DNA of 64,000 nt from Tridacna crocea. Its lineage: Eukaryota; Mollusca; Bivalvia; Cardiida; Cardiidae. Location of the stretch: assembly GCA_943736015.1 (NCBI GenBank), contig OX031064.1:32611361-32675360 (forward strand), in the 5' to 3' direction. Below are positions 1 to 64,000 of this stretch, piece by piece (positions within the stretch are counted from its first letter, which is position 1; each line of letters opens with the position of its first letter). Made by a program: the position numbers and the translations under genes. The notes below the pieces were generated by a model, which worked only from the letters and a program-made list of their open reading frames with translations, was not told where the DNA came from and ran no database searches.

Positions 1-235
1 CATATTAAAGATTATTGACAACTCCACTTGTTTTCAGCTGGTTTTTAACCAATTTTATCCTTGGTTTATGAAACAATAATCAATCATCTGTCTTCCCACC
101 AAACATTGCCCTTAATGGCAGCATGGCTGCACAGATTATAATGGATTAAAAATGTATTTTCCTTTCTTAATTACCTCCCATTTTTGATTCTTGAAGGGAC
201 TTCAACAAAAATACAACCATGGATTGTTGCTTGTT

Positions 236-321
236 GTCAGCATTTTCTCCTTTTCCCACAAAGATTTCAGAAGGCTTCTTTCTCACGTTGGCTAGAGGTT
301 GGGATTGTATGGTAAAGAGTT
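236..321 (-). mobile_element. TTAA-hairpin MITE, half copy
   Basis: Only one core arm (CAGCATTTTCTCC) and the left end in reverse orientation, ending GGTAAAGAGTTA. Confidence 0.7.
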
Positions 322-419
322 ACAACAACAGAGAATCTTCAGTCTAGAAATATGACCCATTTTTAATAATGGCAATTCTAAGGTTGCTTTTGACTCTCTT
401 GTGGTACTGCATAGCAAAC

Positions 420-478
420 AGCCATGTTCATCAAAATATGCAGTCTGATCTTGATCTGCACTGGCCACAAAGGCTGGT
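420..478. repeat. GATC-hairpin (F family) fragment
   Basis: ATGCAGTCTGATCTTGATC and CACTGGCCAC match the F-family copies at 13.8 and 26.5 kb. Confidence 0.5.
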
Positions 479-523
479 TTAGTTGTGAAAGGTGCTTTAA
501 AGATACATCTTTTGCCCTTCTTT

Positions 524-575
524 TACCCTGGTAACCAGCATTTTCTCCTATTCCCAGAATTTTAACCTTTCTCAA
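524..575. mobile_element. TTAA-hairpin MITE fragment
   Basis: CTGGTAACCAGCATTTTCTC centre only. Confidence 0.55.
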
Positions 576-617
576 AAGATATTTTCAATTTTCACTTTTG
601 ATTTTTTTTTCTATAAA

Positions 618-3600
618 TGCTATCTGGGCAACTTCAAAAAAAATGAAGCAAAAGTGTGACATTGGGGGTCAAATTTCAAACCTGTTTTATCATGGCGCTT
701 TTTCTATTTTTTTGACTAGGAGACATCCAAGTTCAAGGAACAAGCACTTCTACACGCAAAAAAAATGTAGAACTTGACCAAAATTAATGTTTTAATATTT
801 TTTTCATCAATTTTTTTCAATTTGTTAGTTGACAAAAGAATTGATACTACACACAGGCATTAAGAAAAATGTCAATCTTTTTAATTTAGCTTTAGGGGGA
901 AGTGTTTAGGGCACCATTTTAACACAATTTTTCTCACACATATCTATTTATTTTTTTCTTATAGGATTTTTTTTAGTATTTGAGCCGTATATTTTCATTC
1001 GACACATCCCAAAGTTTTTTTCACTGGGAAAATGGGCAAGCTAAAATGAAAAAACATATATGTTAATATCAATGAAGGTATTGCCAAAGCATATGTAAAA
1101 TTTTAATTGGTTATGATGAATATCAGAGTTGTTAGGTCTGTGTCAAAAACATGACATTATTTAGAAAAAAAATGTTACACTTGTGACACTTTCAAAACTA
1201 AGGGTTTTTGTTTAAAATTTGCATTCTAATACCAAATTCTTTTCACATTTAGAATCTTTTGGTAATCACAAATGATTAAAGAGCAATTTGCAAGTAACCT
1301 TTCAACTTTAGGAGGAACAATGAAGAAAAATGATAAGGGAAGCTATTCTTATCTAAATTGGCAATATTGTTTTACTTTTTTCACAAATGACTCATGAAAG
1401 TGGTAGAATCTCTCATTCTGCAAACAGTTATAAACTATCAAATCATAATAAAACAATTTGTTATAAGTTTAAAGCCCCTGCCATAATCTGTAGGCTAGTT
1501 TTAAAGGTACCTTATATGCTACACTTGTGACAAAAGTAGTAATAATGACAAAAATAATTATTTTACTTCAGTACCTGGTTTTTATTTTCAAGTTCTTTAC
1601 CATGCAACAAAATTATTGGCTTGCTCCAATAGAAACTGCTTACAACACATTTAAGGTGTGTAAAATTGTAGAATTGAGCATTGATAGGGTAGAAAACATC
1701 GGGTGGAAAAGGATAAAATGCGGTGTACCACCATTTTCTCTCTTTTTAGAGGAGTGAAAGAGATTTAACCCTTTACCAAAAGATAACATTTTAGACTTGT
1801 CAAAATTGAAAGCCTTTGCAGACAATATTTTTAATAAATGTGATCAGCATTTTCTCCTTTTCCCACAATGTTTTTCAAAGGCTTCGTTCTCAGGGTCCTC
1901 GAAAGTAGGTATTATGTGGTAATGGGTTAAATGGAATCTGTAACAAACCAACTACTTTTTCTCTCAACACACAATATGAAAGGGGAAATCATCAAATGAG
2001 CATACAATCATGTTTGATGAGTTTCTTGAAGTAGTTATCAGTTTTCTGGCATGTTCTTACTCTGAACAAACTTGTTGAGGGCTCCTAATTTTTGTTCAAG
2101 ATTTTTGTTAACACCCTTCTGAAAGTGAGATATAAGCTTTTACATTTCTTTGTGATCAATTTCAATAAAGTGATAAATTTTCTGTGAAAGTCAGGATTGG
2201 CCTTTATGAATTACTTGTACAGTTTAAGCTTTGAATAAAGTAGATGCCATCTAACAACTGGAATACCTCCAATCAACACAGTGTCTCTTTTGTTTGGCAA
2301 TTTTTTGGAGTTTTCTTCTAGGAAAAGACTTTTGTCCTTGCTTTCTTTTTGAAATAACCTCTATATCAAATGATGAATCCTTTTTTCTCTGCTGTTTTAC
2401 TTTCTGTACAAAGTTCTTGCTTCTATTACAGCCTTCTTAATTTTTTACTTCTGTTTTAGTCCTAGGTCAGTTTTTAAGTCTCTTTCGTCACTTTCTTACA
2501 CATGCTTTGAAGCTTGAAAATTTCTTTTCACATGTATTGGCAAAGGATTTACCTTTATATTGTAACTTAACAACAAGTCTGAAGTTCATTTTTCAGTTTC
2601 TTTAACTAGCTGTGGAATTAAAAAATTTATAATGATTAATTCTTGAAATGTATGATTTTTGTCACAAGTGTAACATTTTAGGGCATCTTACTGATTTTGG
2701 CAAAAACCACCAGATTTCCTTTGAAATTAATTGTAATCTTTTGACTTTTAGGTACATAAATAATTTAACATTATATCTGACTGAAAAAACTGAAATGAAT
2801 CTGTATAATAAAACAGATATCTGATGCCATTTTCCTGCTATATCTTAGTTTTATAGATCTATTAAAATTTCTTTCACAGAATTGCTAAAATCTCTATAAA
2901 TATGCATGATGAAAGAACTGTGATGCTTCATAAGTATTACATTGACTATTAGAGCAATGTAGGTATTTAAATGAGCTCTGTACATGTGTATGTTATACAT
3001 GCTCAAAATGTGTTACACTTGTGACATCAGTTGAGACCTGCTGGCGAGGTCCACTGCTCACTCATTTAAATAAAATTGACATCACTGGCATCTTTTGACT
3101 TCCCGGATCAGGAAAATAGCAAATAGTGATATGTTATTCGAAGATTAAAGAAATACTGATGTCTGAAACATCAAATGTTACACTTGTGACATTTTTAGGT
3201 CATGTTGATCAAGCCAGGCTATACAACAGGTGTTGTATTTGTCTGTTGAAAAGACATTTTTTTATTGTTTCTAATACATTGCTGTTTATAAAAAAAACTT
3301 ACCCAGAATGTTAAATTTCATCTATTCTCACTGGTAGCTTTAGAAAATCAGAGCACATGAAAAATTGTGCTCCCTTAAGCTCAAGGGGTAGGTGTATATA
3401 AATATTAGGATATTTGTTCCAACAATTCCAAAGTGGGTGGAAATGACGTCAGCTTGAAAATAATATACCTAAGTACACATACTGTGAACCTTGATAATAT
3501 ATACTCACAACTGTAAGCAAGATTAACAAATGAAGAACAGGGTATTTTAAAAATGTCACACTAAAAGTGTTACACTTGTTACTTTTTTTGATACATTTTG

Positions 3601-4309: not shown

Positions 4310-4538
4310 TTAACCCTTTACCCTATAAGGCATTTCTGTGGTATCTTAAATTGACCCTAAATAACAGCAAGGATGAAGCCGTTTCTTATGTGTATATGAC
4401 ACCATTTGATAGCATAGAAAACATTGTGGCAAAAGGTGAAATTGCTCGTCACGAGCAATTTCACCTTTTGTCACAATGTTTTCCAAAGGCTCCTACAAGC
4501 AATGCGTAGAAATGAGTATCTATGGAGTAAAGGGTTAA
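4310..4538 (+). mobile_element. TTAA-hairpin MITE, CGAGCAATTTCACC core (subfamily 2)
   Basis: TTAA at both ends, termini CCCTTTACCCCATAAGG and GGAGTAAAGGG. The core is GGCAAAAGGTGAAATTGCTCGT, CACGAGCAATTTCACC (quoted in parts), a different palindrome in the same frame of ACATTGTGG..CCACAATGTT. Sister copies at 21308, 39111, 59448. Confidence 0.85.
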
Positions 4539-5860: not shown

Positions 5861-6041
5861 GGTAGTCAGGGTTCACTCTTTACAAGACATATAATTTTAA
5901 CTTCACAGCCATGCCAGATATTAAATTGCCAAGATGACGAAGTAAAATTGGCTCAGTTGATAGGACCTATCATTTTTCCGGGTAGAAGACATTATGGAAG
6001 AAGGGAAAAAAATGAATATTACTAGTTTTTCTTTAAACCAG

Positions 6042-6135
6042 CAGTGTGTAAAAGCCCAAATATCTGCCATGAAAGTCAGGGATTATTTTGGGAAAGGTTT
6101 ATTACTTGACAGTGCACCTGTTGTGTTTTCTTTAC
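6042..6135 (+). CDS. Candidate small exon (KVRDYFGKG)
   Basis: Bounded by a pyrimidine-rich acceptor (TTTTTCTTTAAACCAG) and a strong donor, C|GTATGT. The phase-0 frame reads 31 codons, QCVKAQISAMKVRDYFGKGL and then LLDSAPVVFSL, leaving phase 1. Composition looks coding. It could be a 5' exon of the HEAT-repeat gene; the link is inferred only from strand and compatible phases. Confidence 0.35.
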
Positions 6136-7096: not shown

Positions 7097-7324
7097 GAAC
7101 TCTTTACCAAACGACAAAATTGTAGATTTGTCTAAATTGAAAGCCCTTGCAGATGACAGAATAAATGTGACTCAGAAATTGAAATTTGGTATGGGAAGGA
7201 TAGAAAACATTGTGGGAAAAGAAGAAAATGCTGGTTACCAGTATTTTCTTCTTTTCCCACAATATTTTCAAAAGGTTTCTTTCTCAGGGTCGTTAAAAGT
7301 CAGGATTCTGTGGCAAAGAGTTAA
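7097..7324 (-). mobile_element. TTAA-hairpin MITE, arm-matched AAGAAG variant
   Basis: The core arm is GGGAAAAGAAGAAAATGCTG and the other arm carries the matching CTTCTTTTCCC, so the G-to-A change is present on both arms. Confidence 0.8.
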
Positions 7325-8134: not shown

Positions 8135-8356
8135 TTTACTCTTTGCCAAACAACACAATTTTAGACTATTCATAAAAATAGTATTGGAAAGGGAGAAAAT
8201 GCTGGTAACCTGAGTATTTTCATCCTTTTCCACAAAGTTTTCTACCCTGTCAAAGGTAAATTGCACCATTATAATAATGAGCCACTTTGAAATTGCCGTC
8301 TGCAAATGCTTTCAATTTGGATAGATTCAAAGTTTTGCTGTGTGGTAACGTGTTTA
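8135..8356. mobile_element. TTAA-hairpin MITE with two right ends
   Basis: The left side starts CTCTTTGCCAAACAACACAA (an inverted right end) and the right side has GCCGTCTGCAAATGCTTTCA (a right end), so both arms are of right type around the core. Confidence 0.6.
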
Positions 8357-9178: not shown

Positions 9179-9393
9179 TTAACCCATTACCACACAATCC
9201 CAGGTTACTGAGAAAGAAGCCTTTAGAAAACATTGTGGGAAAAGGAGAAAATGCTGGTAACCACAATGTTTTCCCACAATGTTTTCTACCCTTCACAAGA
9301 CAAATTTCAAATTTTAAGTCACTTTTATTTTGTCGTCTGCAAGTGCTTTCAAATTGGACCAGTTCAAAATATTGCCGTTTGGTAATGGGTTAA
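9179..9393 (+). mobile_element. TTAA-hairpin MITE, full length
   Basis: TTAA both ends; termini CCCATTACCACACAATCCC and TTTGGTAATGGG. The core right arm is altered (CACAATGTTTTCCCAC). Confidence 0.85.
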
Positions 9394-12097: not shown

Positions 12098-12245
12098 CGA
12101 AATTTTCTCCATTTTCCCACTATGTTTTCCAGCTTTCCATAGACAAAAATCATTTATTTATTTATTGTAACAACATCAAATTTGTCGTCTGCTATGGCTT
12201 TGAATTTGGTCGTGTCAAAAAAAAAATGTTGTTGGTAAAGAGTTA
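12098..12245 (+). mobile_element. TTAA-hairpin MITE, right half
   Basis: AATTTTCTCCATTTTCCCAC, TTGTCGTCTGCTATGGCTTT, end GGTAAAGAGTTAA. Confidence 0.65.
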
Positions 12246-12282
12246 AATCTAGATATTGTTTGTAACAAGTTGAACTATTCAG

Positions 12283-12406: not shown

Positions 12407-12634
12407 TTAACCCATTACCACACAATCCCTACTTTTGATGACCCTGAGAAAGAAGCTTTTAGAAAACATTGTGGGAAAAGGAGAAAATGCTGGTAACCAG
12501 CATTTTCTCCTTTTCCCACAATGTTTTGTACTCTTCACAAACAAATTTCAAATTTTCAGTCATTTTTAGTTTGTTGTCTGCAAATGCTTTCAATTTGGAC
12601 CAGTCTAAAATGTTGTCCTTTGGGAAAGAGTTAA
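12407..12634 (+). mobile_element. TTAA-hairpin MITE, full length, perfect core
   Basis: CCCATTACCACACAATCCC to TTTGGGAAAGAGTTAA; core arms perfect, with GTAACC centre. Confidence 0.9.
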
Positions 12635-12651: not shown

Positions 12652-12885
12652 TTAAGCTCTTTACCAAACGACAAAATTTTATACAAATCTGAAATGAAAG
12701 CACTGGCAACGACAAGGTAAACGTAACTCAAAAGTTGAAATTTGTTTCCAACAGGGTTACTAAGAAAACATCATGGGAAAAGGAGAAAATGCTGGTTACC
12801 AGCATTTTCTCTTTTTCCTACAATGATTTCAAAAAGCTTCTATCTCAGGGTCGTAAAATCCTGGGATTGTTTGTTAAAGGGTTAA
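12652..12885 (-). mobile_element. TTAA-hairpin MITE, full length
   Basis: Opposite orientation to the copy 18 bp upstream; core GGAGAAAATGCTGGTTACC. Confidence 0.85.
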
Positions 12886-14374: not shown

Positions 14375-14450
14375 TTAACCCATTACCACACAATGCCTAT
14401 TTTTGACGCCATTGAGAAAGAAGCCTTTAGAAGATATTATGGGAGAAGGA
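14375..14450 (+). mobile_element. TTAA-hairpin MITE, left end only
   Basis: Begins TTAACCCATTACCACACAAT and breaks off at GGGAGAAGGA, where C-element sequence starts. Confidence 0.75.
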
Positions 14451-14769
14451 TGCTGGTTATTATCCCCCATTACATCATATTTCTGAAAGCCAATGAAATA
14501 TTGTTTTACAAACCGCTTACGAATACAATTATTCAACATGAAGCCATAAGCAGACATCCACGTGGGTTTCCATGTTTACCTTCTATTCGAAAGGTCACAA
14601 CTTTATTCCTTTTTTATCAAAGATGAAATGCAACGAGCAATTTCATCCATTGGAGTTAGAGCTGGCTGCATCCAATTAAAAAACATATTGAGGAATGTAA
14701 AAATCAAGCTCGATCAGCAGCCAAGGGTAGAGTAGTGTAGTGAATCATCAGCCTTGGCTTGCGAAGATG
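14451..14769. mobile_element. C element, left-truncated
   Basis: Matches C copies from GATGCTGGTTATTA to the right end CCTTGGCTTGCGAAGATG. Confidence 0.8.
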
Positions 14770-15088: not shown

Positions 15089-15316
15089 TTAACTCATTAC
15101 CAAAGGACAAAATTTTAGGTGTGTCCAAATCAAAAGCACCTGTAGATGACAAAATAAAAGTGACTGAAAACTTGAAATTTGGTCTGTGAAGGGTAGAAAA
15201 CATTTTTGGGAAAAGGAGAAAATGCTGGTTCCCAGCATTTTATCCTTTTCCCACAAAGTTTTCTAAAGGCTTCTTTCTCAGGAGTGTCAAAAGTAGGGAT
15301 TGTGTGGTAATGGGTT
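15089..15316 (-). mobile_element. TTAA-hairpin MITE, full length
   Basis: TTAACTCATTACCAAAGG to GTGGTAATGGGTTAA; core GGAGAAAATGCTGGTTCCC. Confidence 0.85.
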
Positions 15317-15640
15317 AAAAAGAAAGCTTGAGTCACAATATTCCATCTACATTTCTCTAAAATATACTTCTCACATCATGGTTGCTATGACATTGTTAAC
15401 GGGTGCTGCAATGTTTAAGATCACTTGATTTGCAATTCAAAATGGAAAGAACCATTATATGGATGAGGTTAGATGTAGTTATGGAATCAGTCAAGCTGTG
15501 ATCAGTGTCTGCCAAAATTTTGACTTTTTTTATCCTTCATGTAACCTTGGGTAACCCTTTTCAAAAATTGTTCGTGAAATTTTGATTGATCAAGAAACAT
15601 GGCTATGGTGACTGGGGCTACTTGCACCATATGGGCATGA

Positions 15641-16833: not shown

Positions 16834-17055
16834 TATCTCTTTATCACACAATCCCGACTTTTAACAACCCTGAGAAAGAAAGCTTTTGAAAATATTGTAC
16901 GGAAAAGGAGAAAATGCCCTTAACAAGCAGTTTCTCCATTTCCCACAATGTTTTCTAACCTTCCAAAATAAAATTTCAATGTTTGAATAGTATTTGTTGT
17001 CTACAAATGCTTTCAATTTGGACTAGTCCAAACTTTTGTTGTTTAGTAAAGAGTT
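16834..17055 (+). mobile_element. TTAA-hairpin MITE
   Basis: TTATCACACAATCCCGAC to TTTAGTAAAGAGTT; the two core arms no longer pair fully. Confidence 0.8.
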
Positions 17056-17302: not shown

Positions 17303-17528
17303 TTAACCCTTTGCAGAATAATCCCAGGCTTTCACAACCCTGAGAAAAAAGCCTTCTGAAAACATTGTGGAAAAAGGAGAAAATGCTGGTAACCAGCATT
17401 CTCTCCTTTTCACACAATGTTCTCTACCTTTCCAAGACAAACTTCAATTTTTGAATTGCCTTAATTTTGTTATCGGCAAATAGTTCAAAATTGGTCAAGT
17501 CTAGAATTAGGTTGTTTGGTAAAGAAAT
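17303..17528 (+). mobile_element. TTAA-hairpin MITE
   Basis: TTAACCCTTTGCAGAATAAT to TTTGGTAAAGAAA; core intact apart from CTCTCC on the right. Confidence 0.8.
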
Positions 17529-17627: not shown

Positions 17628-18080
17628 TTTAATCCTTTACCACACAGTCCCGGGTTTTAACGACCCTGATGAAGAAAGCTTTTGAAAACATTGTGGGAAA
17701 AGAAGGAAATGCTGGTAACCAGCATTTTCTTCTTTCCCCACGATGATTTCTACTTTCCCCCAAACAAATTTAAATCCTGAGTCAAATTTACTCAGTCATC
17801 TGCAAGTGCTTTCAAAATGGACAGGTTTAACCCATTACCACTCAATCCCTACTTTTGACGCCCCTGAGAAAGAAGCCTTTTGAAAACACTGTGGGAAAAG
17901 GAGAAAATGCTGGTAACCAGCATTTTCTCCTTTTCCCACAGTGTTTTCTATCCTTTCCAGAACAAATTTCTATTTTTCAGTCATCTTTATTTTGTCGTCT
18001 GCAAATGCTTTTAATTTGGACCAGTCCAAAATTGTCTCATGTGGTAATGGGTTAACATTTTTGTGTTTGGTAAAGAGTTA
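17628..18080 (+). mobile_element. TTAA-hairpin MITE, outer copy (split)
   Basis: Runs 17628-17830, is interrupted at TTAA, and resumes 18056-18080 with CATTTTTGTGTTTGGTAAAG. Removing the insert and one TTAA restores a normal right end. Confidence 0.9.
17827..18055 (+). mobile_element. TTAA-hairpin MITE nested in another copy
   Basis: TTAA (17827-17830) CCCATTACCAC ... GTGGTAATGGG TTAA (18052-18055). Eleven-bp perfect terminal inverted repeats, perfect core, and arm-matched ACACTGTGGG / CCCACAGTGT. Confidence 0.95.
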
Positions 18081-19307: not shown

Positions 19308-19689
19308 CGGTTTACTAAATAATCCCTTGTTTTTACGACCCTAGGAAAGAAGGCTTTTGAAAACATTGTCGGATAAGGAGAAAATGCTGGTCACCAGCAT
19401 TTTCTCCTTTTCCCACAATGTTTTTCTACTCTTCCAAATTCAAGTTTCAATTTCAGAGTCACACTTAATTTGTCATCTGCGAATGCTTTCAATTTGGACC
19501 AGTCTTTACCACACAATACCAGGTTTTGACAACCCTGAGGAAAAATTCTTTAGAAAACAATGTGGGAAAAGAAGAAAATGCTGGTTACCAGCATTTTCTT
19601 CTTTTCCCACATTGTTTTCTAACATTTGTCATCTGCGAATGCTTTCAATTTGGACCAGTCTAAGATAATGTAATTTGTTAAAGAGTTAA
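19308..19689 (+). mobile_element. Two recombined TTAA-hairpin MITEs
   Basis: The first core (GGATAAGGAGAAAATGCTGG) and the second core (GGGAAAAGAAGAAAATGCTG with matched CTTCTTTTCCC) share a repeated 35-bp right-end segment (TCATCTGCGAATGCTTTCAA at 19471 and 19628), as expected from recombination between copies. Confidence 0.75.
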
Positions 19690-20106: not shown

Positions 20107-20296
20107 TTAACTCTTTCCCAAATGACAGATTTTTAACTGAACCAAATTCAAAGCATCTGCAGGTAACAAATCTTGCTAATATGATGATTTTTGACTGTGT
20201 AGGAAAGGTACCAACATTTTCTCTTTCCCCACAATGTTTTCAATAGGCTTCCATTCCAGGGTCATAATAAAAGTGGGGATTGTGTGGTAATGAATT
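20107..20296 (-). mobile_element. TTAA-hairpin MITE, core partly deleted
   Basis: TTAACTCTTTCCCAAATGAC to GTGGTAATGAATTAA; only one core arm remains (CCAACATTTTCTC). Confidence 0.7.
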
Positions 20297-20500
20297 AACA
20301 AGATGACAAAATCTTAGACTTGTCCAGATTGTTAGCCCTTCAAAGAAAAAACTGAATGTGACTCAAGTATCTAAATTTGTTTTTGGATGGATTCTAGAAA
20401 AACCAGAAAATGTAGGCACATGTACTAGGATTTTCTTTCCTTGTCCCACAGCGTTTTCAAATGGCTCTTTGGCTTGGATCTGTAAAACTCGAGATGATCT
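20297..20500 (-). mobile_element. Decayed TTAA-hairpin MITE
   Basis: ATGACAAAATCTTAGACTTG and a CCAGAAAATGTAGGCAC core; directly abuts the previous copy. Confidence 0.5.
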
Positions 20501-21307: not shown

Positions 21308-21538
21308 TTAACCCTTTACCCCATAAGGCATTTCTGGGGTATCTCTAATTGACCCTAAATAACAGCATGGATGAAGCCATTTCTTATGTGTATTTGACAC
21401 CTTTTGATAGCATAGAAAGCATTGTGGCAAAAGGCGAAATTGCTCATCTCGAGCAATTCCACCTTTTGCCATAATGTTTTCCAAAGGCTCCTACAAGCAA
21501 TGTGTAGAAATGAGTATCTGTGGAGTAAAGGGTTATTA
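21308..21538 (+). mobile_element. TTAA-hairpin MITE, subfamily 2
   Basis: TTAACCCTTTACCCCATAAG; core GGCGAAATTGCTCATCTCGA, GCAATTCCACC; end GGAGTAAAGGGTTA. Confidence 0.85.
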
Positions 21539-23577: not shown

Positions 23578-23821
23578 CACTCTTTACTAAATAACAGGAC
23601 TTTAGACTTATCCAGTGTGGTAGCACTTTCAGATGACTTATCAGATTTCATGGGATTTGTCTTTGTAAAGATTAGAAAACATTGCTGGAAAAGGAGAAAA
23701 TGCTGGTTACCAGCATTTTCTCCTTTTCCAGTAATGTTTTCAAAAGGCTTCTTCCTCGGGGTCGTGCAAAGGCTTCTTTTCCAGCCTCATTGAAATACAG
23801 GATTGTTCTGTAAAGGGTTAA
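23578..23821 (-). mobile_element. TTAA-hairpin MITE, arm-matched CTGG variant
   Basis: Core CTGGAAAAGGAGAAAATGCT paired with AGCATTTTCTCCTTTTCCAG, so a GGGA-to-TGGA type change occurs on both arms. Confidence 0.85.
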
Positions 23822-24111: not shown

Positions 24112-24321
24112 TTAACCCTTTACCAGACAACAAAATTGTATACCAGTCCAATTTCAAAGTACTTGCACAGTCAAGAACTGAAATATTTTTTTGACAAAAA
24201 ACAAATTGTGGAAAAAAGGAGAAAATACTTGTAACCAGCATTTTCTCTTTTTCCCACAATGTTTTCAAAAGGTTTCGTTCTCGAGGTTGTTAAAAGTCAA
24301 GATTGTGTGGTGAGCTGTTAA
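24112..24321 (-). mobile_element. TTAA-hairpin MITE
   Basis: TTAACCCTTTACCAGACAAC; core GGAGAAAATACTTGTAACC. Confidence 0.8.
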
Positions 24322-24343: not shown

Positions 24344-24427
24344 TTAACTCTTTACCAAACATCCCAGAAGCTGATAAAGACATCTTATGAAATATTGTTG
24401 GAAAAGAAGAAAACACTGGTAACCTGA
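24344..24427 (+). mobile_element. TTAA-hairpin MITE, left half
   Basis: TTAACTCTTTACCAAACATC to AACACTGGTAACC, breaking at the centre of the palindrome. Confidence 0.7.
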
Positions 24428-25775: not shown

Positions 25776-25990
25776 TTAACTCATTACCAAACGTCAAAAA
25801 TTTAGACTGGTCCAAATCAAAAGCATTTGCAGACAACTGAAAAATTGAAATTTGTTTTGTGAAGGGTAGAAAACATTGTGGGAAAAGGAGAAAATGCTGG
25901 TTACCAGCATTTTCTCCTTTTCCCACAATGTTTTCTAAAGGCTTCTTTCTCTCAGGGGCGTCAAAAGTAGGGATTGTGTGGTAATGGGAT
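25776..25990 (-). mobile_element. TTAA-hairpin MITE, perfect core
   Basis: TTAACTCATTACCAAACGTC to GTGGTAATGGG. Confidence 0.85.
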
Positions 25991-26873: not shown

Positions 26874-27101
26874 TTAACCCATTACTATACAATCCCTACT
26901 TTTGACGCCCCTGAGAAAGAAGCCTTTAGGAAACATCGTGGGAAAAGGAGAAAATGCTGGTAACCAGTATTTTCTCCTTTTCCCTCAATGTTTTCTGCTC
27001 TTAACAAAACAATTTTCAAATTTTCAGTCACTTTTTGTCTGTCGTCTACAAATGCATTCAATTTGGACAAATCTAAAATTTTGTCATTAGGTAATCAGTT
27101 A
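26874..27101 (+). mobile_element. TTAA-hairpin MITE, full length
   Basis: TTAACCCATTACTATACAAT; core near-perfect; right end TAGGTAATCAGTTA. Confidence 0.85.
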
Positions 27102-27128: not shown

Positions 27129-27356
27129 TTAACCCTTTCCCAAACAATCCCTGGTTTTTACGGGTCTGGAATTGTAGCCTTTTGAAAACATTGTGGGTAA
27201 AGAGAAAATGCTGGTAACCAGCATTTTCTCATTTTCCGACAATGTTTTCTACCCTATCATAATCAGAAACCGTCTTTTCAGCAAGAATTGAATTGCCGTC
27301 TGCAAATGCTCTCAATTTGGTCTAGTCCAAAAGTTTGTTGTTTGGGAAAGGGTTAA
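27129..27356 (+). mobile_element. TTAA-hairpin MITE, full length
   Basis: TTAACCCTTTCCCAAACAAT to GTTTGGGAAAGGGTTAA: 13 bp of matching termini, both carrying the CCC/GGG variant. Confidence 0.9.
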
Positions 27357-27360
27357 AAGT

Positions 27361-27870
27361 ATGGAAATTACTGCGAAGATGACAATCTGTCATTGTACAG
27401 TTGGTCCAAGTGTTAGTTGCTGACAGAGAAATACAAGTTCAAAACTAGGTTAAGACCTGCCAGGTAGCTGTGTCATTTGTTTACTTTTTGCTTGATTTCA
27501 AAATTCTTTTTTTTTTTCTGCGACTAACATATGGCCCAACCACATGATATCAGACTCATACTTTCAAATGGAATGAATTCAATTTAACTCTTTACCACAT
27601 GACGAAATTTTAGACTGGTTCAAATTGAAAGTATTTGCAGACGACAAAATAAAGGCGACTAAAAAATTGAAATTTATTTTGAGAAGAGTAGAAAACACTG
27701 TGGGAAAAGGAGAAAATGCTGGTTACCAGCATTTTCTCCTTTTCCTACAGTGTTTTCTAAAGACTACTTTCTCAGGGGCGTCAAAAGTAGGGACTGTGTG
27801 GTAATGGGTTAAATGTAATATGAAACCTGCTTTGATATTTTGGCCTTCACTGGACCTTTAAAGCTGCAGA
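27361..27870. repeat. N repeat, copy 1 (filled by a MITE)
   Basis: Similar to 43556-43830: ACAGTTGGTCCAAGTGTTAG, TGACAGAGAAAT, AAAACTAGGTTAA, ATGGCCCAACCACA. Split by the TTAA element at 27584-27812. Confidence 0.85.
27584..27812 (-). mobile_element. TTAA-hairpin MITE, full length, empty site known
   Basis: TTAA both ends, core arms with ACACTGTGGG / CCTACAGTGT. The paralogous N copy has a single TTAA (43781-43784) at this position. Confidence 0.95.
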
Positions 27871-28283: not shown

Positions 28284-28512
28284 TTAACTCATTACCACAC
28301 GAGAAAATTTTGGACTGGTCCAAATTGAAAGCATTTGCAGACGACAAAATAAAGGTGACTAAAATATAGAAATTTGTTCTGGGAAGGGTAGAAAACACTG
28401 TGGGAAAAGGAGAAAATGCTGGTTACCAGCATTTTCTCCTTTTCCCATAGTGTTTTCAAAAGGCTTTTTTCTCAGGGGCGTCAAAAGTAGGGATTGTGTG
28501 GTAATGGGTTAA
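28284..28512 (-). mobile_element. TTAA-hairpin MITE, full length
   Basis: TTAACTCATTACCACACGAG to GTGGTAATGGGTTAA. It lies between two candidate HEAT exons. Confidence 0.9.
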
Positions 28513-29481: not shown

Positions 29482-29612
29482 GACTCTTTACCAGACAACA
29501 AAGTTTTAGCATTGTCCAAATTGAATGCATATTAATGACAATTTCTATGTGGCTCAGATGGTGTGATTTTTGTTTCATTGGGTAGAATAGATTGTGGGAA
29601 AAGGAGAAAATG
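29482..29612 (-). mobile_element. TTAA-hairpin MITE, truncated in the core
   Basis: CTCTTTACCAGACAACAAAG to GGGAAAAGGAGAAAATG. Unusually close to the outer copy at 30488-30942. Confidence 0.75.
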
Positions 29613-30065
29613 TAAGTAAGTGTATCTTTGAAATAAAAAGCTAGTGGGAACACTGTATGGTCAAGTGTAATCAGACTGCTGCCATGGTTGGACCTTGGCA
29701 TCCAAACTGCTTTTAGAGATATCTGAAAACTTTTGGGTAAACCAAGTCAAATCACACTTTCCTTTAAGTTCAAGCTAGTTCAGTAACCCCTGACATGCAG
29801 TCTTATACTTATGCCATACTTTTTGAGATATTTTGACTGGAACTAATGCCTATCTCTGCAATGTCTGTAAACAAGGAATTATCCAATGAGGTGAACCGTA
29901 AATGTCACATGACTGATACAGAATAATGAAGGACCAAGTGACAGTTTGGCTTCCCAAGGGCCTTTTACAATAATTACATTTCTTCCTCATTCTTCCATTC
30001 CATGGATTTAATTAGACATCCAGTGACAATGTTAGGTTACCTCTTCAGCAGTCAGAACAAATTTG

Positions 30066-30272
30066 AAGGCTTGTTCAAATTGAAAGCACTTGCAGACACC
30101 AAATTAATTTCAGCTCCATTGATGAGCTTTAGCTGCGATAAAGAGAAAATCATTTTGGGAAAAAGAGAAAATGCTGGTTACCAGCATTTTCTCATTTTCC
30201 CAAAATGTTTCCAAAGGCCTTTTTGTCAAGGTCATTTAGTCTTCAACAGTTGTTGTGAAGTAAAAGGTAAAC
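30066..30272 (-). mobile_element. TTAA-hairpin MITE
   Basis: TTCAAATTGAAAGCACTTGC; arms GGGAAAAAGAGAAAATGCTG / AGCATTTTCTCATTTTCCC. Confidence 0.75.
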
Positions 30273-30487: not shown

Positions 30488-30942
30488 GACTCTTTACCTG
30501 ACAACAAAGTTTTACCTATACCACATGATCCCTACTTTTGACGCCCCTGAGAGAGAAGCCTTTAGAAAACACTGTGGAAAAAGGAGAAAATGCTGGTAAC
30601 CAGCATTTTCTCCTTTTCCCACAATGTTTTCTACCCTTCACAAAATACAAAATTCAAATTTTTGGTCACTATTTTTTTGTTGTCTGCAAATGCTTTTGAT
30701 TTGGACAAACCGAAAATCTTTTTGTTTGGTAATGAGTTAAGCATTGTCCAAATTGAAAGCATATTGATGACAATTTCAATTTGACTCAGATGGTGTGATT
30801 TTTGTTTGATTGGGTAGAATAGATTGTGGAAAAAGGAGAAAAAGCTGGTTACTGGCATTTTCTCTTTTTTCCCACAGTGTTTTCATAAGGCTTCTTTCCC
30901 AGGTTTGTTAAGAGTCCGCATGACATGTTGGTAAAAGGTTTA
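30488..30942 (-). mobile_element. TTAA-hairpin MITE, outer copy (split)
   Basis: CTCTTTACCTGACAACAAAG TTTTA before the insert and GCATTGTCCAAATTGAAAGC after it; reads through without the insert as in the 29482 copy. Confidence 0.8.
30516..30740 (+). mobile_element. TTAA-hairpin MITE nested in another copy
   Basis: Left end decayed (CTATACCACATGATCCC), right end GGTAATGAGTTAA; perfect GGAGAAAATGCTGGTAACC core. Confidence 0.85.
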
Positions 30943-31131: not shown

Positions 31132-31359
31132 TTAACCCTTTTCCAAACGACAAAAATATAGCATGGTCCAAATTTATAGCATTTCCAGACCACATAATGA
31201 ATGTGCTGAAAATTTGAAAGTTGTTTTGAGAAGGGAAGAAAACATTGTGGGAAAAGGGGAAAATGCTGGTTACCAGCATTTTCTCTTTTTCCCTCAATGT
31301 TTTCAGGAGGCTTTTGTCTTAGGGTCATTAAAGGTCGGGATTGTGTGGTAAAGAGTTAA
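31132..31359 (-). mobile_element. TTAA-hairpin MITE, full length
   Basis: TTAACCCTTTTCCAAACGAC to GTGGTAAAGAGTTAA. Confidence 0.85.
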
Positions 31360-35479: not shown

Positions 35480-35655
35480 GAAATTTTCTCCTTTTCCCAC
35501 AGTGTTTTTTAACCTTCCCAGAACAAATTTCAATTTTTCAGTCACCTTTATTTTGTTGTCTGCAAATGCTTTAAATTTGAACCAGTCTACACAATGTTTT
35601 TGAAAGGCTTCTTTATAGGGGTTGTTAAAAGACGGGATTGTGTGGCTAAGAAATA
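35480..35655. mobile_element. Rearranged TTAA-hairpin MITE
   Basis: One core arm, a right end (TTGTTGTCTGCAAATGC), then directly an inverted left end (AAAAGACGGGATTGTGTGG). Confidence 0.65.
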
Positions 35656-38425: not shown

Positions 38426-38648
38426 TTTGACTCTATACTACACAATCCCGACTTTTAACAACCCTGAGATAGAAAGCCTTTGAAAACATTGTGGGAAAAG
38501 AAGAACATGCTTGTAACCTGCATTTTCTCCTTTTCCCACAATGTTTTCTACCCTTTCCAAATAAAATTTCAAGTTTTGATTCACATTTATTTTGTCGTCT
38601 GCAAATGCTTTCCATTTGGACGATATCATAGTTTTTGTTTCTGGTGAG
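38426..38648 (+). mobile_element. TTAA-hairpin MITE
   Basis: CTACACAATCCCGACTTTTA; core GGGAAAAGAAGAACATGC; right end GTCGTCTGCAAATGCTTTCC. Confidence 0.8.
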
Positions 38649-38649
38649 G

Positions 38650-39110
38650 GCTATGACCTCACAACAGACAACCCTCACTTATTAAACATGACCTATTAGT
38701 TTTCGAAAGAAAAGGGGATATTTATTTATAAAACATGAAGACAAAATTGTGCTTTATTATTGCAATTGGTGGATATCAAAAGAACATTTTCAGTAATGAA
38801 AACTTGTTTTATATTTTTTAACTGATGTAAAATAACTGCTTTCAAAAAATTCGGTGGAGTAAACAGTGGATATGTGGTGCTACATATGCAAATGAGGTAT
38901 TTTACTGATTACCACAGTATCATTGATGGGTTGTACCAACGAGTATGATTATTCATAGACTACTTATGGCAATCCTAGGATTACTTCTGGTGATATTAAA
39001 ACTTGTCAGATTACCTCGGAAAAACTTTTTTAAAAAGAAGGTATTGAAGATAAGAAAGATCCCGGATTAACAGAGCAGTTTTCTCACAAGGCAACCATCT
39101 TGCCTTTGAC
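38650..39110. other. No gene or repeat recognised
   Basis: Intronic by position, AT-rich, without hairpins. Confidence 0.4.
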
Positions 39111-39338
39111 TAAACCCTTTACCCCATAAGGCATTTCTATGGCATCTCTAATTGACCCTAAATGACAGCAAGGATGAAGCGGTTTCTTATGTGTAAATGA
39201 CACCAATTAATAGCATAGAAAACATTGTGACAAAAGGTGAAATTGCTCGTCATGAGCAATTTCACCTTTGCCACAATGTTTTTCAAAGGCTCCTACAAGC
39301 AATGTGTAGAAATGAATATCTATGGGGTAAAGGGTTAA
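39111..39338 (+). mobile_element. TTAA-hairpin MITE, subfamily 2
   Basis: ACCCCATAAGGCATTTCTAT; core GGTGAAATTGCTCGTCATGA, GCAATTTCACC; GGGGTAAAGGGTTAA. Confidence 0.88.
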
Positions 39339-40447: not shown

Positions 40448-40865
40448 GGGCTCCTGCATAGCTTAGTGGTAAAGCGTAGGACTTGTTACCTGGAGGCCCT
40501 GTTTGAACTTCACAAGAAATATTGGGGTTTTCATGGGAGTGTCATTTGGCAACAACACTTAACCCTTTACCAAACAATCCAGGGTTTCAACGACCCTTGG
40601 AAAGAAGCCTTTTGAAAACATTGTGGAAAAGGTAGAAAATGATGGTAACCAGGACAAATATACAGTAAGAAGGACAAATTCCAGCTTTTGAGCCAACTTT
40701 AAGTTGTTGTCTGCAAATGTTTTCAATTTGAAGCTAATACTTTGTTGTTTGGTAAAGAGTTAGGAATCCTAGCTCAAAACTGGTGAAATCCAGGGCATAC
40801 AATATGTGAACTCTTGCAGTGATGTAACTGAAATAATGTTGAAAGGAGCATAAATCATCACAGAT
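40448..40865 (+). mobile_element. tRNA-derived SINE, split by a MITE
   Basis: CATAGCTTAGTGGTAAAGCG is a good A box. The body stops at 40558 and a SINE tail (GCAGTGATGTAACTGAAATA, ATGTTGAAAGG) continues from 40763. Confidence 0.6.
40559..40762 (+). mobile_element. TTAA-hairpin MITE nested in a SINE
   Basis: TTAACCCTTTACCAAACAAT to GGTAAAGAGTTA; one core arm partly lost. Confidence 0.8.
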
Positions 40866-41754: not shown

Positions 41755-41982
41755 TTAACCCTTTCCCAAACGACAAATTTTACACTCTTCCAAACTCAAA
41801 GAGTTTGCAGACGACAATTTCAAATTTGATAAAAATGGCAGAAAGTTCTCCAAATGAGTAGAAAACACTTTGGGAAAAGGAGAAATTGCTCGTTACGAGC
41901 AATTTCTCCTTTTCCCACAGTGTTTTCAAAAGACTTGTACTCCAAACACGTAAATACACGGGCTTGTTTGGGAAAGGGTTAA
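41755..41982. mobile_element. TTAA-hairpin MITE, subfamily 3 core
   Basis: TTAACCCTTTCCCAAACGAC to GTTTGGGAAAGGGTTAA; core GGGAAAAGGAGAAATTGCTC, then GTTAC, GAGCAATTTCTCC. Starts 11 bp after an exon donor. Confidence 0.9.
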
Positions 41983-42165
41983 CCCTTTACCACACAATTC
42001 TGACTTTTAATTCCCCTATGAAAGAAGCCTTCTGAAAACATTGTCGGTTTCCCACATTGTTTTCTTCCCTTCCTGAATCAAATTTCATTTTATTAATCAC
42101 CTTTATTTTGTCATCTGCTTTTAATTTTGACCAGTCCAAAATTTTGTTGTTTGGTAAAGAGTTAA
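41979..42165 (+). mobile_element. TTAA-hairpin MITE without its palindrome
   Basis: Shares TTAA 41979-41982 with the previous copy. ACATTGTCGG is joined directly to TTTCCCACATTGTT, so the central palindrome is missing. Confidence 0.88.
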
Positions 42166-44649: not shown

Positions 44650-44851
44650 GATAAGACCTAAGCTGTTAAAATTTGCTGTTGATAATCCAAGTGGGCCTCA
44701 TGTCATGAAACATGTCTTTGATAGGATAGAAAAAATTGTGGAAAAGGAGAAAATGCTGAGTACCACCAGCATTTTCTCCTTTTCCCATAATGTTTTCAAG
44801 AGCTGTCAACCTCAAAGTCATTAAAAGTCAGGATTGTGTGGTAAGGATTAA
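44650..44851 (-). mobile_element. TTAA-hairpin MITE
   Basis: GGAGAAAATGCTGAGTACC, ACCAGCATTTTCTCC core; ends GTGGTAAGGATTAA and shares that TTAA with the next copy. Confidence 0.75.
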
Positions 44852-45075
44852 CTCTTTACCACACAATCCCGACTTTTAACAACCGTGAGAAAGAAAGCTT
44901 TTGAAAACATTTTGGGAAAAGGAAAAAATGCTGGTAAACAGCATTTCTCCTTTTCCCATAATGTTTTCTATCCTTCCGAAATTCAATTTCAATTTTTGAG
45001 TCATATCTATATTGTCGTCTGCAAATGCTTGCAATTTGGACTAGACCAAAATTATGTCATTTGGTAAAGAGTTAA
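44848..45075 (+). mobile_element. TTAA-hairpin MITE abutting an exon
   Basis: TTAACTCTTTACCACACAAT to GGTAAAGAGTTAA, 22 bp upstream of the acidic exon. Confidence 0.9.
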
Positions 45076-45561: not shown

Positions 45562-45790
45562 TTAACCCATTACCACACAATCCCTTCTTTTGACGCCCCT
45601 TAGAAAGAAGCTTTTAGAAAACATTGTGGGAAAAGGAGAAAATGCTGGTAACCAGCATTTTCTCCTTTTTCCACGCTGTATTCTACCCTTCACAAAACAA
45701 ATTTCATATTTTCAGTCACTTTTATTTTGTGGTCTGCAAATGCTTTCAATTTGGACTAGTCTAAAATACTGTCGTTTGGTAATGGGTTAA
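45562..45790 (+). mobile_element. TTAA-hairpin MITE, full length
   Basis: TTAACCCATTACCACACAAT to GGTAATGGGTTAA. Confidence 0.9.
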
Positions 45791-56300: not shown

Positions 56301-56305
56301 AACCA

Positions 56306-56534
56306 TTAACTCTTTACCAAACAATCCCTGGCTTTTACGACCCTGAGATAGAAGCCTTTTGAAATCATTGTGGCAAAAGGAGAAAACGCTGGTAACCAGC
56401 ATTTTCTCCTTTTCCCACAATGTTTTCAACCGTGCTGGAAGCAAATTTCAATGTTTGAGTTACGATTATTTTGACGTCTGCAAGTGCTTTCAAATTGAAC
56501 CAGTCTGAAATTTTGTCATTTGGTAAAGGGTTAA
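56306..56534 (+). mobile_element. TTAA-hairpin MITE, full length
   Basis: TTAACTCTTTACCAAACAAT to TTTGGTAAAGGGTTAA; about 430 bp upstream of the TATA box of the fibrinogen-domain gene. Confidence 0.9.
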
Positions 56535-56977: not shown

Positions 56978-57098
56978 TCTTAAAAAATCTTCGAAGCGCC
57001 CACGCTACTTTGAAACGATTGGATGGACAAATCTACTACGTAAGTACTTGTTTATTTTATACTTTGTTGTTCAGCACCAGTGCTTTTTGTTTGTAACG

Positions 57099-59447: not shown

Positions 59448-59665
59448 TTAACCCTTTACTCAATAGATACTCATTTCTACTCATTGCTTGTACTAGCCTT
59501 TGGAAAACATTGTGGCAAAAGGTGAAATTGCTCGTTACGAGCAATTTCACCTTTTGTCACGATGTTTTCTAATGTGTCGTATACACATAAAAACGGTGTC
59601 ATCGTTGCTGCTATTTAGGGTGAATTAGAGATACCATAGAAATGCCTTATTGGGTAAAGGGTTAA
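59448..59665 (-). mobile_element. TTAA-hairpin MITE, subfamily 2
   Basis: Inverse of the 4310 copy; core GGTGAAATTGCTCGTTACGA, GCAATTTCACC. Confidence 0.9.
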
Positions 59666-61221: not shown

Positions 61222-62361
61222 ATGGCGACTAGAAATGTCTGCTTACTTTTTATTTCATTATCGATTATGTTGTTTTCTACAGTTCAAACAAATGATGAAG
61301 ATGGAAGTTTATCATTTTTTATTGCAAGGTTTCGTCAGCTAGACATACGAATAAACCTTCTTCGTGAAGAATTCCAGACAGAACTGGCTATGATACCATT
61401 GACATCAGCTGTAAAAGGCAATTCTGACTTAACTGTGGACAAAGATATAAGCAATGTGACGAACATGATCGAAAAACGCGTCTCTGATGTGATTAAATCT
61501 GTAAAATATGGACTTGCTAAAGAGAAAGTGTTCCGCCGAGACGTACAAGAACAGATAAGAAAAATGAAAGATGACCAGATGGTTCTAGAAGGATCTTTGG
61601 TTGACTTAGTGCAAACACTGATTCGCAAGATTGACGAAATTAAAGTTCCATTGACAGAAACACTTGACCGTGATAAGCAGAGTTTTATCTTAAAATCTAT
61701 ATCAGACGCGTCTTTGTATTCAAGAATGGCAAAAGACTGCGCTGACCTATACAGGATGGGTCACGTGACCAGCGGTGTTTATTCCATCCACCTAGATTCA
61801 ATATGGCGACCTCTGGATGTGTACTGTGACATGGAAACAGACGGCGGAGGTTGGACTGTGTTCCAGAGGCGATGTGATGGCTCGGAGGATTTTTACCGTG
61901 ACTGGTTGGATTACCGATTCGGTTTTGGAAATTTGTCAGCTGAATTTTGGCTTGGAAACGAGTTTATCCATCGAATAGTGTCGATTTGTCCACATGAGTT
62001 AAGAATCGAGTTAGAGGACTTCGACAATGATGTTCGTTATGCCAAGTACTTGCTGTTTTCTGTGTGATCTGTTGATGACGGTTTTAGATTGACCATTGAT
62101 GGGTTCAGAGGTAACGTTACAGATTCTTTTACTGGAAATCATAACGGTCGACAGTTTTCAACAAAAGACAAAGGACCATCGATAGGCTGTTCCAAGTCTT
62201 ACAAAGGTGGATTTTGGTACAACAAATGTCACGGAGTGAATGTAAACGGTCTATACTTAAAGGGTGAACACAAATCCTATGCAAATGGAGTGAACTGGCA
62301 TGGATTCAAGGGACATCACTACTCCTTGAAATTTACGGAAATGAAGTTCAGACCCAAATGA
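61222..62361 (+). pseudogene. Fibrinogen-related paralogue with in-frame TGA
   Basis: Tandem paralogue of the 57099 gene with the same build: signal peptide (MATRNVCLLFISLSIMLFST), helical region with SVKYGLAKEKVFRRD, then the fibrinogen domain from KDCADLY (about residue 171). The frame is open for 281 codons, stops at TGA (62065-62067), and is then open again in the same frame for 97 codons to a TGA at 62359-62361. In the paralogue the same position is GGA (Gly), so one G-to-T change explains the stop and there is no frameshift. The truncated product would lack the distal third of the domain, including the C-C pair and the ligand/calcium region. The undamaged remainder suggests a recent null allele, a young pseudogene, or a sequencing error. 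The TGA is not at a cysteine position and no selenocysteine context was seen. Confidence 0.88.
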
Positions 62362-62416
62362 ACTCATTGATAGGTCACATTTAATCTTTACACTGCAATG
62401 TTGATCAAGTTCAGAA

Positions 62417-62422
62417 AATAAA
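62417..62422 (+). promoter_or_regulatory. Poly(A) signal AATAAA
   Basis: Canonical AATAAA about 55 bp after the final stop of the second fibrinogen-domain gene; another AATAAA follows at 62487-62492. Confidence 0.55.
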
Positions 62423-63108
62423 AAACTGCTCATCATGGATCCAAATTGACCGTCACCGATATTTCATTTGATCACTGTTCTTTTAAAATAAAACAGTCGT
62501 GGTTCTGCTTGTGCTCGATATCTGTTGTTTACTATTCTTGTCAATTTCAATTTGTTTGGCATTATGACCGTATGTTGCTTTGAAATGGATGAGAAAGGCA
62601 TACAGGTAACAAATGTTTTGTTCTAAAATAACTGTTTGCCTCTGTTATTAAGGGTCTGAAGGAGGAGTGTATTATCAGGGCTGATCTTCTGATGTAGAAC
62701 CGAGGATGCTAGTAAACTTTATATGACTGAGTAAGAATATTGACCGGACCCAGACAACTGCCGAGGAATATTTTTAATGATTGGGTACTACGTCAACTAA
62801 TCAACGATCAAACTGTGTTGTTTTATGTGTGATATTAAACATCTGTCACTGGAATGGGGTCCGAAGGTTCCATGATATCTATTTTGACAACCGAACGAGC
62901 CAAACTGAAGATTGGTCCTTTGACATGCAAAATTGACCAATAACAAAAAGTTTCAACCGAGATCAGCCTGTGCAGACTTTGTAAAATGACCTTGTATGAA
63001 AGTTTTGCAGATGCACCAGGCCCACTTTTCACAAATCATGGTTCAAAATTCTAAATGATGAATGTGGCGAACAAGTATAATTTTATTTCTCTCTACGAGT
63101 ATGTAAAA

Positions 63109-63338
63109 TTTAATCCTTTACTCCATAGATACTCATTATGATGTATCAATAACAGACAGCTTTTGAAAACTTTGTGGGAAAAGGAGAAATTGCTCGTCAC
63201 GAGCAATTTCTCCTTTTCCTACAATGTATTCCACTCAATCAGATATTTCTATCCTCATTTGTCCATATTTTTGACATCATATCTTTATTTGCTGCTGAAA
63301 TGGAAGAGTCTCAAATTGGTATATCAGGTAAAGTGTTA
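63109..63338. mobile_element. TTAA-hairpin MITE, hybrid of subfamilies
   Basis: The left terminus recalls subfamily 2 (CTCCATAGATACTCAT) while the core is subfamily 3 (GGGAAAAGGAGAAATTGCTC, GTCAC, GAGCAATTTCTCC). Confidence 0.8.
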
Positions 63339-63471
63339 ATTTTAAGCCCCAAAATGATTTTTAAGAATTCTGGCATTTCATATCAGTACATCATTTTGTT
63401 ATCTTGGTGATTCCATGTGTTAAATGTTTTAATTTCAACGTGGATAATCTTAAAAGTGAGCCATGCTCTGT

Positions 63472-63580
63472 GGAAAAAAAAAAAAAAAAAAGGGAGGGGT
63501 GGGGGGTCAATTGCATGTGCAAAGAGTATCAACCTATGTCAGCCTGAGCAGTCCGCGCAGGCTGACATGGGTCGAAACTG
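63472..63580. repeat. A-rich tract and E-family stem
   Basis: About 18 A, then GGGAGGGGTGGGGGG, then ACCTATGTCAGCCTGAGCAG, TCCGCGCAGGCTGACATGGG hairpin. Confidence 0.7.
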
Positions 63581-63600
63581 TTTTGCTCTCTGCATTCCTT

Positions 63601-63990
63601 TTTGTGATATTTGTCGAAGACAACACCACTATGAGTTCAAGATTGAATTTTGATAACCATGTATCTTATTTTTTGCAAAGCCGAAGGAAATAAACCCAGT
63701 TAAACTCATTTTTTCTCAGGCAAATGAGTTTTTCGGTGGCACTCGGATATGTAATTTGAAATGGCATATTAAAATACATTGGACGAAGCCATCGATCGTT
63801 GAGATACTTATTTTTGATTGAAAATAGTTTCTCTCGTTCATATCCTTTTATTGGTGCAATGATACAAATTTGCCAACTGACCATGGGCTTTTTCGTTCTA
63901 AAACCAATTCGTTCCATGGCGTGTTCGTTCTATGATTGCGCGCTACTCCATTTGATTGCTCATGAATATTTATAGATCGAAGTAATTGAT
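63601..63990. repeat. K repeat, copy 2
   Basis: ACAACACCACTATGAGTT to CATGAATATTTATAGATCGA; partner of 18281-18690. Confidence 0.75.
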
Positions 63991-64000
63991 TGTAATATTG

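Follow-up and report, generated by a model that had tools for sequence, protein, structure and literature searches.

The 64,000-nucleotide stretch of the Tridacna crocea genome considered here (GenBank assembly GCA_943736015.1, contig OX031064.1, positions 32,611,361 to 32,675,360 of the forward strand; hereafter the window) is filled with copies of a short non-coding repeat, flanked by TTAA and centred on a palindrome, and raises the question of what this repeat is, what moves it and what its centre does. We have good confidence in the following answer taken as a whole: the repeat is a very large family of miniature inverted-repeat transposable elements (MITEs) of the piggyBac superfamily, with likely partner elements elsewhere in the genome and a core that would act in cis. 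Its identity as a piggyBac MITE and the assignment of partners, judged from sequence comparison, are the part most firmly held and very probably correct.

The exact motif CCCWTTACCA occurs 19 times in the window, against 0.25 expected, and TTAA-anchored termini with at most two mismatches 70 times, against 1.69; the end consensus of the MITE is TTAAC[C/T]C[A/T]TT[A/C]CCA. The spacing of end pairs peaks at 200–299 bp (41 pairs, against 5–24 in each other 100-bp bin). A 229-position profile was derived from the alignment of 22 end-paired copies chosen by hand among 61 pairs. It finds 91 non-overlapping fragments in the window, 39 on the + strand and 52 on the − strand, of which 73 bear the core and 32 have both ends, and which cover 15,372 of the 64,000 bases (24%); the reversed window yields nothing better than an E-value of 0.38. 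As several fragments are parts of one broken copy, 91 is not a number of insertions. The TTAA-flanked family that the initial annotation had described in both orientations, with badly decayed members among its copies, is thus real, and many cores are indeed broken or heavily decayed. Its figure of about 60 copies gives way to 73 core-bearing ones, and its length of 215–230 bp narrows to 228–230 bp (about 229 bp) when intact copies with paired ends are measured, for core types 1, 2 and 3. On average, identity to the majority base reaches 0.87 in the core and 0.90 and 0.88 in the 14-bp ends, against 0.72 and 0.74 in the arms, which agrees with the earlier remark that the core is better kept than the arms.

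The family is not an artefact of a search based on the core, because core-bearing copies cover 59 of the 64 pairs chosen on their ends alone, in the window and in the genome sample described below; most of the core is missing from the remaining five. Of the 64 pairs, 45 are 220–239 bp long. Among the five commonest kinds of end, right ends start with CCC (74) or CTC (12) and left ends with CTC (45) or CCC (44). The MITE thus shows the piggyBac-type start CCC[T/A] or CC[C/T]T, while its CTC ends depart from the textbook motif; the same CCC/CTC asymmetry is found on the partner elements of contigs C3 and C5 presented below.

An intact TTAA is present at 62 of the 102 readable window ends, and abutting copies may share a single one, as at 41979–41982 between the copies 41755..41982 and 41979..42165. 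For 45 elements, both flanks were joined by one TTAA and compared with all the sequence under analysis, which gave spanning matches for ten elements and none for 35. At least one paralogue carries a single intact TTAA for six of the 45 (L024:5324, window 27584, window 9179, L028:7150, L008:1501 and L023:2021), the clearest empty site being that of L008:1501-1730, with one TTAA in five of six paralogues. In these six elements with a clean paralogous empty site, the TTAA behaves as a duplicated target.

The family extends far beyond the window. In the assembly (1,048,827,098 bp, 31 contigs), exact TTAACCCWTTACCA occurs 114,312 times in forward and 114,404 times in reverse orientation, against 14 and 10 for the backward control, and 191,599 sites match a 31-bp type 1 core with 30 fixed bases around a free central base, against none for its control. 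A sample of 20 stretches of 10 kb, taken at round coordinates on contigs C1–C15, contains 170 fragments (141 core-bearing, 72 with both ends) that make up 15.0% of its bases, the reversed control giving none; the density is therefore higher in the window. The sample is uneven, with three of the 20 stretches empty and one at 47%. Extrapolation gives 0.74 million core-bearing copies (bootstrap 0.51–1.0 million) and a genome share of 15% (bootstrap 10–20%). In the window and sample together, 79 of 91 near-perfect palindromes lie inside the MITE. About one seventh of the 1.05 Gb of this animal's genome thus appears to consist of a single miniature element, for which a likely transposase can be named. 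Two copies 2 kb apart (L030:3485-3704 and L030:5568-5787) show zero differences in aligned columns; this pair is probably a segmental tandem duplication.

The initial annotation had suggested a piggyBac-type transposase located outside the window and had proposed a search for an autonomous piggyBac-like element with CCCWTTACCA ends. Pfam finds no transposase in any of the 14 window frames of at least 110 aa, only two fibrinogen domains and one sub-threshold match. The genome contains at least 118 matches to the piggyBac transposase domain PF13843, the 30 best of which span nearly the entire domain; 14 control genomes give none. Partners were sought in the flanks of 15 piggyBac domains, then in two further copies, on C3 and C5, of the family of C15:28712879, which comprises five matches of near-equal score (298.0–298.5 bits), three of which were compared. 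This yielded two elements of the piggyBac superfamily, C3:59403556-59410772 (7217 bp) and C5:7864466-7871668 (7203 bp), whose boundaries are the points where both copies cease to match, exactly at a TTAA on each side. At their 5' ends the outermost 1485 bp show 99.9% identity, and a part of 1584 bp on the 3' side shows 98.9%. The C5 copy carries a 492-aa open frame that matches PF13843 with 297 bits, aligns in a structure library to the solved transposases piggyBat (E 9e-40) and piggyBac (E 3e-36), and ends in a Cys/His-rich C-terminal tail.

The C3 and C5 elements start with TTAACCCATTACC... at the 5' end and TTAACTCATTACCA... at the 3' end, with the TTTTGACGCCCCT motif at the same offset as in the MITE. 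Their 5' end, TTAACCCATTACCGTTCAATAACGCCTTTTGACGCCCCTA, matches the right end of young MITEs at 9 of the 10 positions of the terminal inverted repeat (TIR) after the TTAA and at 19 of the next 26, and GACGCCCCTA is found in the partner at offsets 31, 66 and 101. At the other extremity, the 3' end is identical to the left TIR of young MITEs over 14 of 14 bases. A putative first exon of this partner, starting MSDSDSDNSVFEF, is predicted from 83% identity over 175 bp with a relative found via C7:18510562. This single-copy element of 6376 bp (C7:18507265-18513640), which contains piggyBac transposase sequence, was delimited by the mutual match of its ends, 1.5 kb of its middle not being covered. 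It carries TTAACTCTTTCCCACACAATCCCGACTTTTTACGACCCC and, in its subterminal part, some four 35-bp repeats in tandem, and the young MITE right end matches it at 7 of 10 TIR and 21 of 26 subterminal positions. Right ends with ATT are combined with GACGC in 17 cases and with AACGA in 2, and those with TTT in 3 and 20 cases, respectively (p 9e-7), in a test that uses 42 of 122 right ends, the other 80 having other combinations. The right-end motif of the MITE follows the lineage of the partner. The shared ends of the C3, C5 and C7 elements, together with the six single-TTAA empty sites, thus point to a piggyBac-type transposase outside the window, as had been suggested.

Four other piggyBac families, A (TTAACCCTTTATATAC), B (TTAACCCTAGTCATGC), C (TTAACCCATTTATGCC) and D (TTAACCCTTTCAGTGC), were considered as partners and rejected, since they have other ends: they match any MITE end at 13 of 26 positions at most (for B, whose ends are shorter, 12 of 22). 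They account for nine of the 15 domains whose flanks were read, three of the nine with one end seen; the flanks of C18:19006660, C1:60095799, C1:49496002 and C8:24821097 gave no family assignment. Long open frames of families A–D occur at C10:28376412, C1:8963161, C7:38462639 and C6:1762957 (genome G000), and in families B and C a palindrome lies immediately inside the 5' end (CCGGAATATTCCGG in C13:14433496 and CGTCCCCTTTTGGGGACG in C7:38462639). Mobilization by another superfamily that targets TTAA, such as Kolobok, whose elements likewise use this site according to PMC6004289, is extremely improbable. Indeed, Kolobok ends start with two purines, AG or AGGRR (same source), whereas those of the MITE start with C[C/T]C, and elements with the MITE's ends carry piggyBac transposase sequence, although no search was made for Kolobok elements with C[C/T]C[A/T]TTACCA ends.

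The central palindrome noticed by the initial annotation is present but is larger than the 45–60 bp given there: the core measures 71 bp, i.e. two arms of 35 bp and one spacer base. Subfamily consensuses, built from 10 copies for type 1 and 4 copies for type 3, differ at 80 of 130 arm columns but at only 10 of 71 core columns; the arm identity (0.385) compares with a permuted mean of 0.268 and a largest value of 0.392 in 2000 permutations. A conserved inner region is thus common to families with differing ends or arms. Of the ten core differences, eight form complementary pairs (121/161, 128/154, 133/149 and 138/144) and the others lie at the spacer (141) and the edge (175); four symmetric pairs from nine random stem changes were obtained in 0 of 200,000 simulations. 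Furthermore, the 67 core-bearing window rows contain 56 two-sided complementary cells, against 21.7 ± 4.0 in shuffles (largest 34). At the genome scale, one pattern with a one-sided core change was counted at 882 sites, against 191,599 for the perfect core.

The timing of these changes was addressed with a tree built on the arms of 152 near-full copies from the window, the sample and eight loci fetched by ends; a tree of whole copies agrees on branch rates. On internal branches, the changes per column number 6.16 in the arms, 3.55 in the TIRs and 1.56 in the core, which therefore evolves four times slower than the arms. Among 105 internal-branch core changes, 24 are symmetric on the same branch, against a mean of 2.0 and a maximum of 10 with random partners. 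On terminal branches, the changes per base are 0.101 in the arms, 0.077 in the TIRs and 0.061 in the core, so that the core/arm ratio rises from 0.25 to 0.61. Differences from three agreeing nearest relatives likewise amount to 0.061 in the core and 0.119 in the arms. Bases unique to one of 91 copies are about equally frequent in both (0.0043 and 0.0037), a measure that was set aside because saturated arm columns seldom leave a unique base. We read the constraint as operating chiefly before insertion, with some of it persisting afterwards.

Such a core could also act as RNA, in the form of a hairpin processed as a small-RNA or microRNA-like precursor. Made1, a MITE of the mariner group that is palindromic over nearly its entire length, yields microRNAs. 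The copy at 25776–25992 folds on one strand into an almost perfect 34-bp hairpin (RNA z −9.4), and MITE-derived microRNAs, among which those of the hsa-mir-548 family from Made1, are known (PMC1784062). However, G.U mismatches, which a one-strand RNA would tolerate, do not outnumber A.C mismatches to any notable degree (287 and 277 in 6,557 cells of 205 rows, p 0.70), with no strand preference, and no Rfam family passes its gathering threshold in the window. A function exerted from both strands would mask the G.U asymmetry, and we consider an RNA role to be rather unlikely.

The centre of the palindrome is also a place of breakage. Truncations were counted only where the adjacent 20 columns are at least 75% consensus-like, a filter passed by 45 of 73. 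Columns 134–148 contain 10 of 45 truncations in the window (p 0.001; 10 of 44 in a recount) and 9 of 52 in the independent genome sample (p 0.01). For window, sample and the eight loci together, these 15 of 213 columns hold 22 of 110 truncations, against 7% expected (p 8e-6), the p values assuming uniform breaks, which is a simplification. We take these breaks to mean that a hairpin or cruciform forms in vivo and is then cleaved. Their bias towards the centre suggests that natural palindromes, in the hundreds of thousands, may be fragile sites.

The scenario that we propose is as follows. Transposases of the C3/C5/C7 type would cut and paste the MITEs after recognizing the TIR and the right-end motif. 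The palindrome would serve as a DNA element in cis, either as a dyad binding site or as an extruded cruciform, and a source copy would require it in order to multiply; it would thus be selected among mobile copies and would decay once inserted. This role of the core is put forward tentatively, at somewhat less than an even chance. A broader and more doubtful proposal is that some of the MITEs that use TTAA in animals form a class of their own, in which a third functional site is provided by a long DNA palindrome at the centre that is independent of the partner's ends and evolves by compensated changes. If true, such a palindrome would let source copies multiply far past their partner, perhaps because it becomes extruded or bound while replication or synapsis takes place.

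Several observations weigh against this scenario or limit it. Transposition itself was not observed, and it is from the shared ends that we infer mobilization of the MITE by the partner proteins. Of the ten empty-site matches, that of L031:276 reads TTCA in place of TTAA, that of window 27129 is shifted or decayed and those of L006:286 and L031:6398 are uninformative. Past the first 14 bp, the left end of the MITE matches the partner at only 4 of 26 positions. Both the C5 and C7 elements contain MITE-like matches, old and young (eight in C5, totalling 1266 bp), which are taken as nested copies, and the left arm and core are found in the parts of the partners that were read only as such matches. 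Because of this and of the mismatch at the left end, the origin of the core is unexplained. Type 3 has no partner among the families compared (at most 11 of 26 positions). As none of the partner's subterminal motif is visible in the core, binding of the core by the transposase finds no support in the sequence.

The remaining difficulties concern what happens after insertion. Terminal branches still show 46 symmetric changes out of 618, against a random mean of 15.3 and a maximum of 34, and core change on these branches stays below that of the arms (the ratio of 0.61 given above). The symmetric excess, the existence of symmetric double changes, some of them in single window copies (19504 and 23579), and the centre-clustered breaks, which suggest a hairpin in vivo, are what would be seen if the symmetry arose from a mutational process, the hairpin-templated correction of imperfect palindromes, and not from functional selection. 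This explanation deserves attention but is, in our opinion, unlikely: copy-private symmetric changes, examined as a mark of such correction, show no excess over divergence-stratified shuffles (13 against a mean of 13.0), and correction alone leaves the fourfold slower change of the core on internal branches unexplained. Singletons are also rarer in the core (31 of 987) than in the arms (90 of 1786; odds ratio 0.61, p 0.02), even with CpG columns masked (odds ratio 0.54, p 0.01), and this, like the low terminal divergence of the core, would fit gene conversion or host selection that keeps all inserted copies alike. Since many cores are broken or badly decayed and the core/arm ratio rises from internal to terminal branches, as expected for a constraint preceding insertion, upkeep of every copy is improbable. 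Nevertheless, because the reduced terminal change of the core and the symmetric excess persist, some maintenance after insertion may occur, alongside the selection of mobile copies that we favour.

Within the window, young type 1 full copies are found at 9179..9393 (−; its paralogous empty site with one TTAA is in L007), 12407..12634 (−; 34 of 35 core pairs), 15089..15318 (+), 17827..18055 (−; with a compensated C115/G167 pair), 25776..25988 (+; perfect 35/35 palindrome at 25867–25937), 26874..27101 (−), 27584..27812 (+; paralogous empty site with one TTAA at 43753–43822), 28284..28512 (+; the top score) and 45562..45790 (−), and 30515..30740 (−) is assigned to the same group. The full type 1 copy 7098..7324 (+), whose end pair begins at 7096, has a compensated GAAG/CTTC pair. 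Type 3 is represented by the full copies 4310..4538 (+; core GGTGAAATTGCTCGT/ACGAGCAATTTCACC at 4415–4485), 21308..21535 (+), 39113..39338 (+) and 59448..59665 (−). The type 2 core (GAAATTGCTCGT/ACGAGCAATTTC) occurs in the full copies 41755..41982 (+; core 41859–41929), which has TTTCCCA ends, and 63110..63339 (−; core 63163–63233), which has diverged arms. TTTCCCA ends are also those of the full copy 27129..27356 (−), and 44848..45075 (−) is a full copy with the TTTTAACAACC version of the right end, near the motif of the C7 element. The other full copies lie at 12655..12885 (+), 16834..17055 (−), 17303..17525 (−), 24112..24321 (+), 30038..30268 (+), 31132..31359 (+), 38428..38650 (−) and 56306..56534 (−), and, in decayed form, at 5875..6100 (+) and 8138..8354 (−). 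Both ends are kept despite an internal deletion at 20107..20298 (+) and 40559..40762 (−), and with most of the core gone at 41979..42165 (−).

Among incomplete copies, 19504..19689 (−) keeps a perfect 35/35 palindrome with its own compensated T115A/A167T change, and 23579..23770 (+) shows two neighbouring symmetric core changes. Half copies with a break near the palindrome centre occur at 228..322 (+), 528..639 (−), 24344..24426 (−), 29483..29613 (+) and 35483..35593 (−), the other side of the last being rearranged, and the half copy 12102..12246 (−) has its end near the centre. In the deletion copy 1765..1930 (+), one breakpoint lies at the palindrome centre. The half copy 14375..14459 (−) is fused at the centre to another repeat (14459–14599), which by eye resembles the repeat at 4880–5040; one strand of the latter contains AACCAGCATCC, which may represent microhomology at the centre of the palindrome.

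The window also contains features foreign to the MITE. Two frames on the + strand encode fibrinogen C-terminal domains, at 56841–58250 (Pfam E 9e-73) and 61219–62067 (E 1e-41), the second matching only the first half of the domain, after which the frame ends. Tandem arrays extend over 31675–32584 (period of about 166 bp), 32935–34108 (about 41 bp) and 36391–37879 (about 145 bp). Another fold-back family, centred on CTGATTGGCTAAACC, is present at 5581–5776, 44179–44316, L021:58 and L023:9749. Palindromes with GCGAAAAGT-like outer arms are found at 58634, L013:2909, L013:8157 and L021:4111, those of L013 and L021 having CAGCCTGCGC near the centre in common. A short GTTACACTTGTGAC-like motif was seen by eye in both orientations in the first 3.6 kb (about 1170, 1520, 2655, 3010, 3175 and 3570).

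Comparison with known systems places the element among piggyBac MITEs, with which it shares the TTAA, the CCC[A/T]TT ends and a PF13843 transposase with a C-terminal Cys/His-rich region. CCCTT and CCCAT are among the piggyBac end motifs given in PMC10813416. According to PMC10294476, piggyBac is present in all mollusc genomes analysed, its MITEs not being classified further. Repeats like this MITE can remain without a name in generic pipelines: for the clam Mercenaria, a table in PMC8905726 puts unclassified repeats at about 25% and shows almost no piggyBac. Five core and end strings matched the literature text searched only in a gastric-cancer paper (an end string), and no bivalve element of this kind is described among the matches listed, most subscription journals, Repbase and Dfam lying outside the search. 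Two core patterns have no match in viral contigs; a half-core pattern matched three bacterial or archaeal stretches among other genome contigs, without the mirror half, and these are taken as chance.

In piggyBac and piggyBat, according to PMC11707139, the C-terminal Cys/His-rich domain binds a subterminal palindrome; there the palindromes measure 14 and 19 bp and lie beside the ends, whereas here the palindrome measures 71 bp, is central and is unlike the partner's motif. The T2-MITEs of Xenopus also form a TTAA family with many subfamilies but have AGGRR ends and a presumed Kolobok transposase (PMC6004289), against C[C/T]C here. Made1 offers a likeness in being a short MITE able to fold into a hairpin (PMC1784062).

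By description, the nearest precedent is given by the CMITEs of Acropora corals (PMC2872659). Both have a TTAA target duplication and piggyBac-like ends starting with CC, both include families with different ends around a common, better-conserved interior (75 bp in CMITE, 71 bp here), and for one CMITE family too the partner matches the ends and adjacent bases only, the origin of the core being unexplained. Tandem arrays of full copies are a further trait of CMITEs, and neighbouring copies joined by one TTAA occur in the window. CMITEs differ in size (about 100 bp, against about 229 bp here) and in abundance (1,600 copies estimated in A. millepora, against about 0.7 million here), and the words palindrome, hairpin, stem-loop and secondary structure are absent from the main text of PMC2872659. 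If the proposal of a third functional site is true, the coral elements, whose interior is likewise unexplained, would belong to the same class. The compensated palindrome of the Tridacna element makes the question that they raise, namely what a conserved interior does for a MITE, a testable one.

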